This document shows positions 28,972 through 33,440 of a DNA stretch of 64,000 nucleotides, one piece after another (the stretch's first letter is position 1; each line of letters opens with the position of its first letter). The notes under the pieces are model-generated. The model saw only the letters and a list, made by a program, of their open reading frames with translations. It was not told where the DNA came from and did not search any database. The stretch covers positions 186,001-250,000 of the forward strand of contig NZ_CP013355.1 in assembly GCF_001543325.1 (NCBI RefSeq), read 5' to 3'. The position numbers and the translations under genes are program-made. The stretch is from Lutibacter profundi (GTDB lineage Bacteria > Bacteroidota > Bacteroidia > Flavobacteriales > Flavobacteriaceae).

Positions 28972-30105
28972 ATGAAAATAGGTATTGTTTGTTACCCAAC
29001 ATTTGGAGGTAGTGGAGTTGTTGCAACTGAATTAGGGATGGCTTTAGCAGAAAGAGGCCATCATGTACATTTTATAACCTATAAGCAACCTGTTCGACTA
29101 GATTTTATTTCTAAAGACATTCATTTTCATGAAGTTTTTGTTGAAGAATATTCTTTATTTCATTTTCAACCTTATGAATTGGCTTTATCAAGTAAAATGG
29201 TTGAAGTTGTAAAAGAGTATGATTTAGAAATTTTACATGTACATTATGCAATTCCACATGCATATGCTGCTTATATGGCAAAGCAAATGTTAAAACAAAA
29301 AGGGATTGACGTTAAAGTAGTAACAACGTTGCATGGTACTGATATTACACTTGTTGGAAGCCATCCAAACTATAAGTCAGCTGTAGAATTTAGTATTAAT
29401 AATTCTGATGTAGTAACCACAGTATCAAATAGTTTACGAGAAGATACATTGCGTTTGTTTAATATTACAAAAGAAATTAAAGTAATCTATAATTTTATAG
29501 ATTTTGAGCAATATCCGGAAATAGGTGATGAAGAATGTTTAAGACATACCATAGCAAATGATAATGAACGGATTATAACCCATATTAGTAATTTGCGCCC
29601 CGTAAAAAGAGCTTCAGATGTTATAAAAATATTTTATAAAATTCAGAAGGAAATTCCTTCAAAATTATTAATTGTAGGAGAAGGACCAGATAGAGAAAGT
29701 ATTGAATGTCAAGCCAAAGAGTTGGGAATACTAGAAAAAATACTTTTTATGGGAAATAGTAACGAAGTAAATAAATTACTTTGTTATTCTGATTTGTTCT
29801 TATTACCCTCAGAAACAGAAAGTTTTGGTTTAGCGGCTTTAGAAGCAATGGCTGCCAGAACACCAGTTATTTCTACAAATTCAGGTGGTTTACCAGAAGT
29901 AAATATTAATGGGGTTACAGGATTTTTGAGTGATGTTGGTGATACAGATGATATGGCTAAAAATGGTATATATATATTAAAAGATTTTGACAGGCTTCAA
30001 CAATTTAAACAAAATGCATTAAACCAAGCCAAAAAGTTTAGTTTAGAGAATATTTTACCAGATTATAAAGAGGTTTATAGAGAAGTAATAGCAGGTTGTT
30101 GTTAA
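28972..30105 (+). CDS. bshA: N-acetyl-alpha-D-glucosaminyl L-malate synthase BshA
   Basis: A 377-residue GT-B family 4 glycosyltransferase. The N-terminus KIGIVCYPTFGGSGVVATEL and ATLHGTDIT-like THLHG region (TLHGTDITLVGSHPNY) are characteristic of BshA, which joins UDP-GlcNAc to L-malate in the first step of bacillithiol synthesis. The donor-binding motif SETESFGLAALEAMA is present. The last ~25 codons are duplicated downstream at 33362-33440; this copy is the intact one. The stop codon is immediately followed by an RHS gene fragment. Confidence 0.96.
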   Translation: MKIGIVCYPTFGGSGVVATELGMALAERGHHVHFITYKQPVRLDFISKDIHFHEVFVEEYSLFHFQPYELALSSKMVEVVKEYDLEILHVHYAIPHAYAAYMAKQMLKQKGIDVKVVTTLHGTDITLVGSHPNYKSAVEFSINNSDVVTTVSNSLREDTLRLFNITKEIKVIYNFIDFEQYPEIGDEECLRHTIANDNERIITHISNLRPVKRASDVIKIFYKIQKEIPSKLLIVGEGPDRESIECQAKELGILEKILFMGNSNEVNKLLCYSDLFLLPSETESFGLAALEAMAARTPVISTNSGGLPEVNINGVTGFLSDVGDTDDMAKNGIYILKDFDRLQQFKQNALNQAKKFSLENILPDYKEVYREVIAGCC

Positions 30106-30109
30106 AAAT
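30031..30109 (+). repeat. Left copy of the bshA 3'-end direct repeat
   Basis: The last ~75 bp of bshA. It matches 33362-33440 (about 80% by eye; the right copy has an extra T that shifts the frame and several substitutions). It marks the left border of the accessory island. Confidence 0.85.
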
Positions 30110-31696
30110 GGAAATATTCAGCATTTAAACAGAAATGGTTATACCAATATAGAAGAGACTGATTTTGGTGTAATGGATAATTTGAGCTATAATTATTTAC
30201 CTAATAGTAATCAATTACTTAGCGTAGATGAAAATGATTCATTTGCCAAAGATGTTGGGTTTAAAGAAACAACTACAGGAAATGATTATTCCTACGATGA
30301 CAATGGCAACTTGATAACAGACGCCAACAAAGGCATTATTAATATAAGCTACAACCATTTAAATTTACCAAGCCAAGTTACTTTTGCAGCAGAAAAATAT
30401 ATTGATTACATTTACGATGCAACTGGAGTAAAATTACAAAAAATTGTGACCGATACTGGAAATAGCACAAAAACCAACTACGCAGGTAATTATATATATG
30501 AAGAGGCAGCTGGAATAGAAGAACTAAAGTTCTTTAACCAACCCGAAGGATATGTGGAACCTGATGGAAATGGTGGTTTTGAATACATCTACCAATACAA
30601 AGACCACTTAGGAAATATCAGATTGTCATACTCCGATGCTGATGGCAATGGATCTATTAACGCTGCTACTGAAATTGTAGAAGAAAATAATTACTATCCT
30701 TTTGGTTTAAAGCACAAAGGGTACAATAATGTTGTGAATGGTACGGAAAACATGTATAAAACATTTCAAGGACAAGAGATAAATGAAGAACTTGGTTTAA
30801 ATTGGTTATCATTTAAATGGAGAAATCACGACCCAGCAATTGGAAGATTTATGTCTGTTGACCCACTTGCAGAACAGTACAGTTATCAATTTCCGTATAA
30901 TTTTGCTGAAAATAGAGTTATTGATGGTTTTGAATTAGAAGGATTAGAATGGGTTGATGTTGATGGAGCTTGGGAATATCAAGGTTATACTCAAGTTGAA
31001 GCAGGAAGTCCATTATTTTTTGCTCCTGAAGGTTCTTCTCCTGTTGCATCTTGGACGAGTCAAGAGGTAGCTGAAGGTTATCCAGTTGGAATAGGTGCTT
31101 TAGTTGAAACTTTAAATATTGGCGGTCCTGATGGCACAATCGAACAATTTCAAGCAAATACTAGTGGAATGGTAGAACTTCCGTATAGTGGAACCGAACA
31201 AACAGGATTAGGATCTTCGGGTACATACTCGATAGACGGTCATACAGTTTACGGTTATTATAACAGAAATGATGTGACTGGAGTTGTTAATGACCAATGG
31301 GGAACTGTTGAGAGTGTATCAAATATGATTAATGCAATTACTGAATTTGACATACAAACTTTGCTAAGTAATCCAATACAAATTGGAGATATGAGGTCGC
31401 CTACTAATGGTAGGGTAAATTTAAGTCCAGGGGCTATGCATCACGGAGATAACGGCGCTTTTGACATTAGATTGCTTGGAGTTAATGGAGGGCTTCCAGG
31501 CGGCTCATTAATAAACGATGCTGCTTTTAGTACACAAAACACACAACTTTTTATTAATGCTTTGGGTAATAATGGTTTTAGTCGTTTCTTAATTGGTCCG
31601 AATGCTGTTCCTAATTTAAATAATAGTGGAGGAATTAATGTTAGAAATGGAGGAAATGGACATAATAATCATCATCACGTAGATAATAGAAATTAA
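30104..31696 (+). CDS. 5'-truncated RHS repeat protein with LAS-type metallopeptidase-like C-terminal domain
   Basis: RHS homology begins directly after the bshA stop (frame reads NGNIQHLNRNGYTN from 30107) with no start codon until ATG 30173, which gives 507 residues. YD-repeats and the RHS core follow: YQYKDHLGNIRLSYSD, NNYYPFGLKHKGYN, and the closing GRFMSVDPLAEQYSYQFPYN motif at ~230. After this (~260) the sequence becomes a variable tip. Near its end come HHGDNGAFDIR (His424, Asp431) and the terminal GHNNHHHVD (His500-502). H-x6-D plus H-x-H is the metal site of LAS enzymes (M15, MepA, hedgehog), suggesting a peptidoglycan peptidase toxin. Whether this truncated gene is expressed is uncertain. 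Confidence 0.75.
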   Translation, partial: KNGNIQHLNRNGYTNIEETDFGVMDNLSYNYLPNSNQLLSVDENDSFAKDVGFKETTTGNDYSYDDNGNLITDANKGIINISYNHLNLPSQVTFAAEKYIDYIYDATGVKLQKIVTDTGNSTKTNYAGNYIYEEAAGIEELKFFNQPEGYVEPDGNGGFEYIYQYKDHLGNIRLSYSDADGNGSINAATEIVEENNYYPFGLKHKGYNNVVNGTENMYKTFQGQEINEELGLNWLSFKWRNHDPAIGRFMSVDPLAEQYSYQFPYNFAENRVIDGFELEGLEWVDVDGAWEYQGYTQVEAGSPLFFAPEGSSPVASWTSQEVAEGYPVGIGALVETLNIGGPDGTIEQFQANTSGMVELPYSGTEQTGLGSSGTYSIDGHTVYGYYNRNDVTGVVNDQWGTVESVSNMINAITEFDIQTLLSNPIQIGDMRSPTNGRVNLSPGAMHHGDNGAFDIRLLGVNGGLPGGSLINDAAFSTQNTQLFINALGNNGFSRFLIGPNAVPNLNNSGGINVRNGGNGHNNHHHVDNRN

Positions 31697-31702
31697 GAAA
31701 AA

Positions 31703-32290
31703 ATGAAATATTTATATATAATTACTTTGCTTACAATGTTTTCTTGTGCAAACAAAAAAGAGAAAACAGTAAATGAAATAGGAGGTAACGATGAGTTAAA
31801 AACAATTTTAGAAAAAAAGCAAGAGCCACAAAGTACTTTTTATAACAATGACAAAAATTTAAAGACTTTTGACTTTAATCAATTGCCTTTATCAAAAACA
31901 TCAATAAATGATAACTTAAAATTTAGAATTGAAGATAATTTAAAAAATGAGGTGTTAAAAAAAGATTACTATTATAATCTCATTAATTACAGTAATCTCA
32001 TCGAGAACAAAGAATTTAAAGTGTTTACAGTTTTAGGAGGCTATGACTACTATACAAATGTCATATTACTAACTACGAACATAGAAAGAGATTCCTTGAT
32101 TGATTATAAAATTATTGCATCAGTTATGGGTGATGCAGATAATATAACTGAAATTAGTACAATATTTTTAGACTCAATTACTTTTGAAGTCACTAATAAT
32201 AAAAAAAGATTGACTAAAAATGACGGTTTTAAAATTTTAGATACAAGTAGTAAAATATATAAAATAACTACTAACGGACAAATAAAATAA
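31703..32290 (+). CDS. Lipoprotein, candidate immunity protein for the RHS tip
   Basis: A 195-residue lipoprotein starting 7 bp after the RHS stop. The signal is KYLYIITLLTMFSC (lipobox MFSC, Cys at 15), so it is anchored outside the cytoplasm. The mature part is rich in Asn, Lys, Thr and Ile and resembles no family I know. Polymorphic-toxin immunity genes normally lie directly after the toxin. A periplasmic lipoprotein suits a toxin acting on the cell wall. The function is inference from position and localisation only. Confidence 0.65.
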   Translation: MKYLYIITLLTMFSCANKKEKTVNEIGGNDELKTILEKKQEPQSTFYNNDKNLKTFDFNQLPLSKTSINDNLKFRIEDNLKNEVLKKDYYYNLINYSNLIENKEFKVFTVLGGYDYYTNVILLTTNIERDSLIDYKIIASVMGDADNITEISTIFLDSITFEVTNNKKRLTKNDGFKILDTSSKIYKITTNGQIK

Positions 32291-32500
32291 TGAATAAGAA
32301 CCACCTTTAAAGAGATAGTTTTTTATGCCCTAAAGCGAAGCAACATTTTTAGAAAAGAAATCCTTAAACTTGGTTTTGGTAAGTATACGATCAATATATA
32401 GCTGTGCATCGTAACACAATTTCCGCCGAAAAATACTTGCAATACGATTTAGAAAACCTGTACGAAATCGGCAACAACTTTCACCTGATTAGTTAAATAT
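32291..32500 (+). pseudogene. Decayed 3' fragment of an unidentified gene
   Basis: Two pieces of plausible coding sequence in different frames: SNIFRKEILKLGFGKYTINI (stop at about 32398) and then HRNTISAEKYLQYDLENLYE ending FHLIS and a stop near 32494. A hairpin follows directly, as at the end of a real gene. I do not recognise the family. Confidence 0.35.
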
Positions 32501-32505
32501 ATAAT

Positions 32506-32535
32506 AAAAAGTACTTAATCAAGTGCTTTTTATTA
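32506..32535 (+). terminator. Hairpin ahead of the toxin-antitoxin operon (terminator or operator)
   Basis: AAAAAGTACTT (32506-32516) and AAGTGCTTTTT (32521-32531) pair with one G-U, 4-nt loop, followed by T-rich sequence. It ends the decayed gene upstream and abuts the yefM -7 element, so it could also be an operator. Confidence 0.5.
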
Positions 32536-32541
32536 TATTTG
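32534..32541 (+). promoter_or_regulatory. -7 element of the yefM-yoeB operon
   Basis: TATATTTG, only 4 bp before the yefM ATG, so the transcript would be almost leaderless. It overlaps the T-rich side of the hairpin above. Confidence 0.5.
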
Positions 32542-32545
32542 CAAT

Positions 32546-32794
32546 ATGGAAACAGTTAATTATACAGACTTTCGTTCAAATCTAAAGCATTGGTTTGATA
32601 AAGTAGTCAATGATGTAAGCGATATCATTATCAAGCGTAAAAGCGGTAAAGACCTTGTTTTAATATCATTAGATGAATACAACTCATTAAAGGAAACTAC
32701 ATATTTACTAACAGGAAAAAATAGAGATATTTTATTAAACTCTATCAAAGAACTGGAAGCAGATAAAGGTGTTCAAAAAGACTTAATAGAATAA
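32546..32794 (+). CDS. yefM: YefM/Phd family antitoxin
   Basis: An 82-residue protein with the Phd/YefM N-terminal fold: TVNYTDFRSNLKHWFDKVVN followed by DIIIKRKSGKDLVLISLDEYNSLKET, then a flexible acidic C-terminus that neutralises the toxin. Such antitoxins bind their own promoter. The stop codon abuts the yoeB ATG, the classic antitoxin-toxin order. It lies inside the bshA-flanked island, where an addiction pair would help retain the DNA. Confidence 0.93.
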   Translation: METVNYTDFRSNLKHWFDKVVNDVSDIIIKRKSGKDLVLISLDEYNSLKETTYLLTGKNRDILLNSIKELEADKGVQKDLIE

Positions 32795-33055
32795 ATGAAA
32801 TTAACTTGGTCTACTTCTTCTTGGGAAGATTATTTGTATTGGCAGAAAGTCGATAAGAAAATAGTAATACGAATTAACGAACTCATTAAAAGCTGTATAC
32901 GAACACCTTTTGAAGGTATAGGAAAACCAGAAGCTTTAAAGGGAGATTTACGAGGTTATTGGTCAAGGCGAATAACATCAGAACATCGATTGGTTTACAA
33001 ATACGATAATGAACAAATCTTGATAGCAGCTTGTCGTTATCATTATGGAAAATAA
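32795..33055 (+). CDS. yoeB: Txe/YoeB family mRNA interferase toxin
   Basis: An 86-residue RelE-fold ribosome-dependent endonuclease. The catalytic residues fall at the same numbers as in E. coli YoeB: Glu46 (GKPEALKG), Arg65 (EHRLVYKY), His83 and Tyr84 (CRYHYGK). GYWSRRI is also conserved. All catalytic residues are intact, so the toxin should be active and held by yefM. Confidence 0.95.
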   Translation: MKLTWSTSSWEDYLYWQKVDKKIVIRINELIKSCIRTPFEGIGKPEALKGDLRGYWSRRITSEHRLVYKYDNEQILIAACRYHYGK

Positions 33056-33126
33056 ATCCCTCCCCGCTCCCGAACGATTGCATTGTGTTCTAAATTACTT
33101 AAATTAAAAAGCCGTATTTTTATCTT

Positions 33127-33372
33127 ATGAGTAGAAACTATAAATTTCATAATCCTGAAGGGCTTTATTTTGTAAATTTTGCTGTGGTAGATTGGTTAAA
33201 TGTTTTTACGGACCACACAAAAGGATTTGTGCGGCAGCATTGTGGAATAAAAGGTGTAGCTAAAAGTTCTTTCAAAGCTAGTGATGCCTTTTCTAGAGGT
33301 GGAGCAGGTAAAGTTGCTAATTTATTCGTTAGGCTTATTCAAAATTTAATGACATCTACACAAAAAGTTTAG
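33127..33372 (+). pseudogene. IS200-like (REP-associated, RAYT) transposase head fused to unrelated tail
   Basis: The first ~28 residues, MSRNYKFHNPEGLYFVNFAV, are typical of Y1/RAYT transposases. After WLNVFT the family sequence stops and an unrelated tail continues to a stop inside the right bshA repeat. The HUH motif and catalytic Tyr are absent, so it is inactive. Confidence 0.6.
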
Positions 33373-33440
33373 CTTAGAGAATATTTCACCAGATTATAAA
33401 GAGGTTTTATAGAAAATTAATATGGGTTTTTGTTAAGAAT
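33362..33440 (+). repeat. Right copy of the bshA 3'-end direct repeat (decayed)
   Basis: Aligns to 30031-30109 over ~79 bp, e.g. CCAGATTATAAAGAGG is identical in both. One extra T after GAGG and several changes destroy the frame. It ends inside the aroB stop region and marks the right border of the island. Confidence 0.85.

Follow-up and report, generated by a model that had tools for sequence, protein, structure and literature searches.

The RHS gene fragment behind bshA in Lutibacter profundi ends in a variable C-terminus (the tip) and is followed by a lipoprotein gene. Do the two form a toxin and its immunity protein, what kind of enzyme might the toxin be, and could the organism still use it as a weapon? 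We addressed these questions in a window of 64,000 nt (GCF_001543325.1, NZ_CP013355.1, positions 186,001-250,000, forward strand), to which the coordinates below refer. We consider it probable that the two genes constitute an effector-immunity module in which the tip is a zinc peptidase resembling MepA (peptidase family M74, of LAS type) and the lipoprotein serves as its immunity protein, and that the copy in the window is an orphan.

A conserved tip and its lipoprotein partner

The preliminary description had proposed, from a metal-site signature, the gene order and the localisation of the lipoprotein, that the RHS tip is a cell wall toxin and the downstream lipoprotein its immunity protein. 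Both open reading frames (ORFs) are as described, except that they are separated by 6 nt rather than 7. The RHS-associated core (TIGR03696, 34.4 bits against a cut-off of 32.5) precedes the variable C-terminus (Table 1). All searches together yielded three members of the tip-lipoprotein pair: the window, an Aquimarina locus whose tip is 64-66% identical, and a third locus, in another family, where the genes stand in the same order and the tip is a stand-alone protein of 279 aa (37-40% identical). In the third locus the tip gene lies 3 nt before the gene for a 211-aa lipoprotein, and across the three loci, with three different carriers, the gap between tip and lipoprotein is 3 to 12 nt. A lipobox cysteine was found by eye in all three lipoproteins (Cys15, Cys15 and Cys16). 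Those of the window and Aquimarina are 49% identical, and the third is related to both (hhalign, E = 3.9e-4). Because a related lipoprotein also follows the tip in Aquimarina and in the third locus, the pair holds in three of three loci and in three settings, which supports the toxin-immunity pairing; the adjacent gene appears to travel with the tip, and protection itself is predicted.

The third pair lies downstream of a VgrG-like fragment and upstream of a DUF4280 gene (1.9e-18), DUF4280 being a PAAR-like family of the type VI secretion system (T6SS) (PMC5014421). The upstream fragment matched only DUF2345, with 18.3 bits against a cut-off of 30.7; it had no NCBIfam match, and no VgrG was among its PDB matches. 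Between the lipoprotein and DUF4280 genes of this locus (L104, 2246-2632) lies an ORF of 128 aa that begins with a signal-like sequence and has no Pfam match, part of which resembles, by eye, a stretch of the VgrG-like fragment.

The residues on which the preliminary description had based a LAS-type signature, His424-x6-Asp431 and the C-terminal GHNNHHHVD, are both present in the window tip, and the combination of H-x6-D with a later H-x-H (His424/Asp431 and His500/His502) is kept in all three tips. In the three-tip alignment, 66 of 226 columns are invariant. These include Asp431 and the histidines at 423, 424, 497, 500 and 502, so that the homologues keep every one of the six residues proposed for the site; the other two histidines, 357 and 501, vary. 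Over the core, the tips share with the penicillin-insensitive murein endopeptidase MepA (PF03411; Escherichia coli structures 1tzp and 1u10), in the same order, the elements IGDM-x2-P-x2-G, H-x6-D-I, [ST]R[FI] (TRI in MepA) and H-x-x-H-x-H-V. Equivalents of the GD motif and of MepA His113, Asp120, His206, His209 and His211 thus occur in order in the tips. The partner of MepA His113 differs by method, being His424 in hhalign and the adjacent His423 in MAFFT. The closest structural match of the tip model was also MepA, a LAS enzyme and one of those named in the preliminary description, which together with the conservation of the proposed site residues supports the LAS-type signature.

Table 1. 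Features of the locus in window coordinates.
Feature	Position	Strand	Remarks
Direct repeat, 5′ copy	30011-30076	+	Inside the bshA end; 66 nt at 83%
RHS coding sequence 5′ of the first ATG	30104-30172	+	Open frame; likeness to Aquimarina RHS reaches as far as the stop codon of bshA
Islet between bshA and aroB	30106-33432	.	RHS fragment, lipoprotein, YefM-YoeB, 81-aa ORF; 3.3 kb
5′-truncated RHS gene	30173-31696	+	ORF of 507 codons/aa; TIGR03696 core at residues 174-250
Toxin domain	31016-31696	+	Residues 282-507; proposed MepA/M74-like LAS metallopeptidase
I-G-D-M motif	31382-31393	+	Residues 404-407; IGDM of E. coli MepA, residues 95-98
His423 and His424	31439-31444	+	Invariant in 3/3, H-x6-D spacing; His424 proposed first zinc ligand (MepA His113)
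Asp431	31463-31465	+	Proposed second zinc ligand (MepA Asp120)
His497-x-x-His500-x-His502	31661-31678	+	MepA His206-x-x-His209-x-His211; His502 proposed third zinc ligand
Lipoprotein, proposed immunity protein	31703-32290	+	195 aa; lipobox FSC, Cys15 at 31745-31747
Direct repeat, 3′ copy	33342-33407	+	Decayed second bshA end directly before aroB

Genomic contigs gave one relative locus (69 stretches matched a pattern), viral contigs gave none, and neither did plasmids and phages, a single plasmid match at E = 0.4 being taken as chance. Among whole genomes, matches came from 1 of 397 in the family (its own), 2 of 395 in the phylum (its own and one judged to be chance after inspection) and 3 of 66 around Aquimarina (the known genome and two chance matches). 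In the order, 89 of 395 genomes matched at E up to 1; its own and that of the third locus were true, and the 8 inspected of the 87 others held no relative. In the Aquimarina genome 16 stretches match the RHS core; their tips are of many different kinds, and four of the stretches lie within 6.5 kb on contig C16. One carries the known tip, two are cut short after 12 and 19 codons, and the other 13 lack this tip. Of the other carriers for which a search had been suggested, the tip was found on the Aquimarina RHS protein and, near apparent spike-type genes, on the stand-alone protein of the third locus.

A truncated carrier in an islet at the bshA end

The Aquimarina RHS protein, of 1774 aa, opens with a signal-like sequence and carries Ig_7 stretches, DUF6443 and the RHS region (its core scored 31.9 bits, slightly below the cut-off) ahead of the tip. 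Residues 1-504 of the window protein are 58.9% identical to its last part. The window protein begins at an internal methionine behind bshA. It has no signal peptide (by eye) and no DUF6443, and the greater part of its relative's RHS shell is gone; its N-terminal export or delivery part is, as read from the sequence, missing. The frame upstream of the ATG is open (KNGNIQHLNRNGYTNIEETDFGVM, with MGNITQLQRTGHTNEAATTFGMM as the Aquimarina counterpart, compared by eye), and since RHS likeness continues through it to the bshA stop codon, the gene is 5′-truncated, with about the last 530 codons remaining. The preliminary description had missed this truncation. No further RHS core was found in the single-contig genome of 2.97 Mb, and a search of the genome for DUF6443 gave no match, but its controls gave none either. 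With these N-terminal parts gone, and with no other RHS core found in the genome, the idea of a working weapon in this organism was not borne out. Delivery by the window gene is unlikely, and the module there would therefore be an orphan.

The fragment lies in an islet that is missing from every one of the 11 relatives in the genus for which the bshA locus was compared (38 genomes searched, its own included; 12 loci fetched, one of them its own). In these relatives a convergent aroB follows bshA, within 5 nt in eight and at 128, 169 and 1,115 nt in the other three. The islet is bracketed by a repeat of the bshA end, of which the final ~46 of 66 nt differ by 2 mismatches, and we read it as a probable insertion at the end of bshA, made either by an integrase or by homologous recombination. 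The repeat looks as if an element had integrated there and left an att-like duplication; no integrase family matched any of the five islet ORFs scanned. The islet also holds a YefM-YoeB type II toxin-antitoxin pair (32546-33055; Pfam E = 6.8e-16 and 1.2e-39) and, at its 3′ edge, an 81-aa ORF (33127-33372) with no Pfam match, which may, as a guess, be a broken mobile-element gene. In another genus member the junction of bshA and aroB holds a different insert, of 1.1 kb, which contains an ORF of 291 aa (L015, 228-1103), so that the spot may be insertion-prone.

These observations bring in the strongest rival explanation, namely that the locus is debris: a decaying RHS fragment without present function, with the lipoprotein as a passenger. 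We give this a substantial, though less than even, probability, and it is compatible with a MepA-like toxin ancestor. It would account for the truncation at the bshA stop codon, the lack of a signal peptide (by eye), the failure to find another RHS core, the empty DUF6443 search (with its silent controls) and the duplicated gene end around the insertion. However, the frame is open over all 507 codons, none of the six proposed site residues has been lost, and the lipoprotein is full-length with a lipobox.

Proposed assignment of the tip to a peptidase family

When scored with a two-motif matrix of the M15 family, 117 of 3000 shuffles of the window tip scored as well as the tip itself, and at least 9 of 674 unrelated pieces outscored it; by motif alone the tip is unremarkable, and it is its conservation in two relatives that lifts it above chance. 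The Pfam search, with E values up to 10 admitted, did not return PF03411, although the HMMER filters drop most weak matches, and our own hidden Markov model (HMM) of MepA (K-12 and seven of the 28 plasmid records) gave E values of 0.033, 0.29 and 6.4, none of them significant. The AlphaFold model on which the structural match rests (226 residues, three-row alignment) has low confidence around the metal site; an earlier model of 176 residues from two rows was discarded (predicted local distance difference test score 28.6). Foldseek searches of PDB and of viral structures gave nothing with an E value of 0.001 or below. The structure prediction that had been proposed as a check, run on the 226-residue tip, placed a LAS enzyme first and left the metal-site geometry unconfirmed, because the model is of low confidence there.

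An alternative that we regard as improbable is a LAS peptidase of M15 type (a D-Ala-D-Ala peptidase or an L-Ala-D-Glu endopeptidase) rather than a MepA-like one. In the MAFFT alignment Arg408, His424, Asp431 and His502 pair with the Arg, His, Asp and His of Peptidase M15_3 (PF08291), a correspondence of all four reached by 2 of 300 shuffles. The Arg-x15-His spacing, followed by His-x6-Asp and the third-ligand histidine, is common to both, and Arg-x15-His itself occurs in 4 of 6 M15_3 proteins. The score over both M15 blocks was matched by 10 of 2000 shuffles, and hhalign scored M15_3 (six of seven loci, without L044) at 16.0, M15_4 (15 of 17 loci, without L049 and L058) at 15.9 and MepA at 15.0, the MepA set then including two wrong-frame rows (L107 and L109). 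However, 13 of 300 shuffles reached the M15_3 alignment score, 276 of 2000 reached that of the first M15 block alone, and at least 8 of 908 unrelated pieces beat the family on both blocks. The hhalign alignments to M15_3 and M15_4 span 14 and 37 columns only, and the M15_3 match was not significant: the HMM search did not return it even with E values up to 10 admitted, and hhalign gave it E values of 0.29 and 0.1. IGDM together with H-x-x-H-x-H-V is the MepA pattern, and both are absent from the M15_3 members compared. No M15 chain was among the structural matches listed for the tip model, an absence that, for this tool, excludes nothing.

RHS tips are most often nucleases, and the tip may instead not be a LAS enzyme at all, its histidine-rich sites belonging to another metal-dependent toxin and the motif likeness being due to chance. 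The shuffle range given above is in keeping with this, as is the lack of any family HMM that detects the tip. The window tip and lipoprotein gave only chance-level matches in Pfam, NCBIfam and PADLOC, PHROGs left the window tip unmatched and gave the third tip two weak matches of unknown function (E = 0.008 and 0.036), and a sequence search of PDB found no convincing relative of the tip. We judge this about as unlikely as the M15 assignment: the co-linear likeness to MepA over the core and the top structural match argue against it, and a lipoprotein partner in all three loci suits a target in the periplasm better than one in the cytoplasm. An HNH-type nuclease was considered by eye only, and a peptidase of M23 (lysostaphin type, H-x3-D) was rejected, again by eye, on the mismatch of the first spacing.

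This group is rich in lipoproteins, and a profile search of the order with the lipoprotein matched 12 of 395 genomes, its own being true; of the 11 other, weak matches 6 were inspected, and none of these extended beyond the signal peptide or the N-terminal part. That the lipoprotein has nothing to do with the tip and lies there by chance is nonetheless very unlikely, given the related lipoprotein 3 to 12 nt behind the tip in three loci with three carriers.

Known systems and implications

Under the MepA-like reading, the tip (residues 282-507), once delivered into the periplasm of a rival, would cut the peptide crosslinks of peptidoglycan. His424, Asp431 and His502 would serve as zinc ligands, and the site would also include His497 and His500. 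The lipoprotein, anchored in the producer's envelope where the enzyme acts, would block it. MepA needs zinc and cleaves the D-Ala-meso-diaminopimelate (mDAP) bond (PMC6403190), and by analogy we predict zinc-dependent cleavage of D-Ala-mDAP crosslinks by the tip. The tips differ from MepA in lacking its cysteines, in insertions in their N-terminal region, in the absence of a significant sequence match and in their place on weapon carriers beside a lipoprotein gene.

MepA-like enzymes used as, or placed like, antibacterial T6SS effectors have been described: 13 WHIX T6SS proteins with MepA-like domains are given in table 2 of PMC12135965, and one MepA-related gene lies upstream of a t0735 homologue (PMC7400221). 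In the parts of these papers that were covered no RHS carrier or Bacteroidota locus is mentioned, and the likeness drawn here is one of description. RHS tips that attack the wall with another enzyme are on record since 2012, as is lipoprotein immunity, in Imm65 with Tox-JAB-1 (PMC3482391). That system likewise has its immunity protein outside the cytoplasm, but its enzyme fold and immunity family are different; in the text covered, the metallopeptidase section deals with zincin-like families, and "carboxypeptidase", "LAS" and "VanY" do not occur. The earlier view that both families are unnamed stands for the libraries searched (Pfam, NCBIfam, PADLOC and PHROGs), whereas the class of MepA-like T6SS effectors is already in print. 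In the literature searched, as far as its text was covered, we did not meet a MepA-like RHS tip with a lipoprotein immunity family.

The module probably moves between carriers, being found on a Sec-exported RHS protein in Aquimarina and, in a different family of Flavobacteriales, as apparent cargo of a VgrG/PAAR-type spike. In the window its present value is most likely that of an immunity gene, or none; immunity against neighbours is a plausible reason for keeping it, with decay as the alternative. More speculatively, and on balance doubtfully, a rare cassette of MepA-derived toxin and lipoprotein immunity protein may move between unrelated Flavobacteriales delivery systems (Sec-exported RHS and T6SS-type spike), the orphan at the bshA end persisting as a defence islet against neighbours that have the full weapon.

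The claim is specific, in that ligands, reaction and protector are named and the chemistry can be tested. If it is true, a MepA-like wall-cutting class, with a lipoprotein immunity family, would be added to RHS tips and to the spike cargo of Bacteroidota, and the occurrence of a single toxin-immunity cassette in three contexts, of which one is truncated, would bear on how orphan modules originate and on whether they are retained for immunity.
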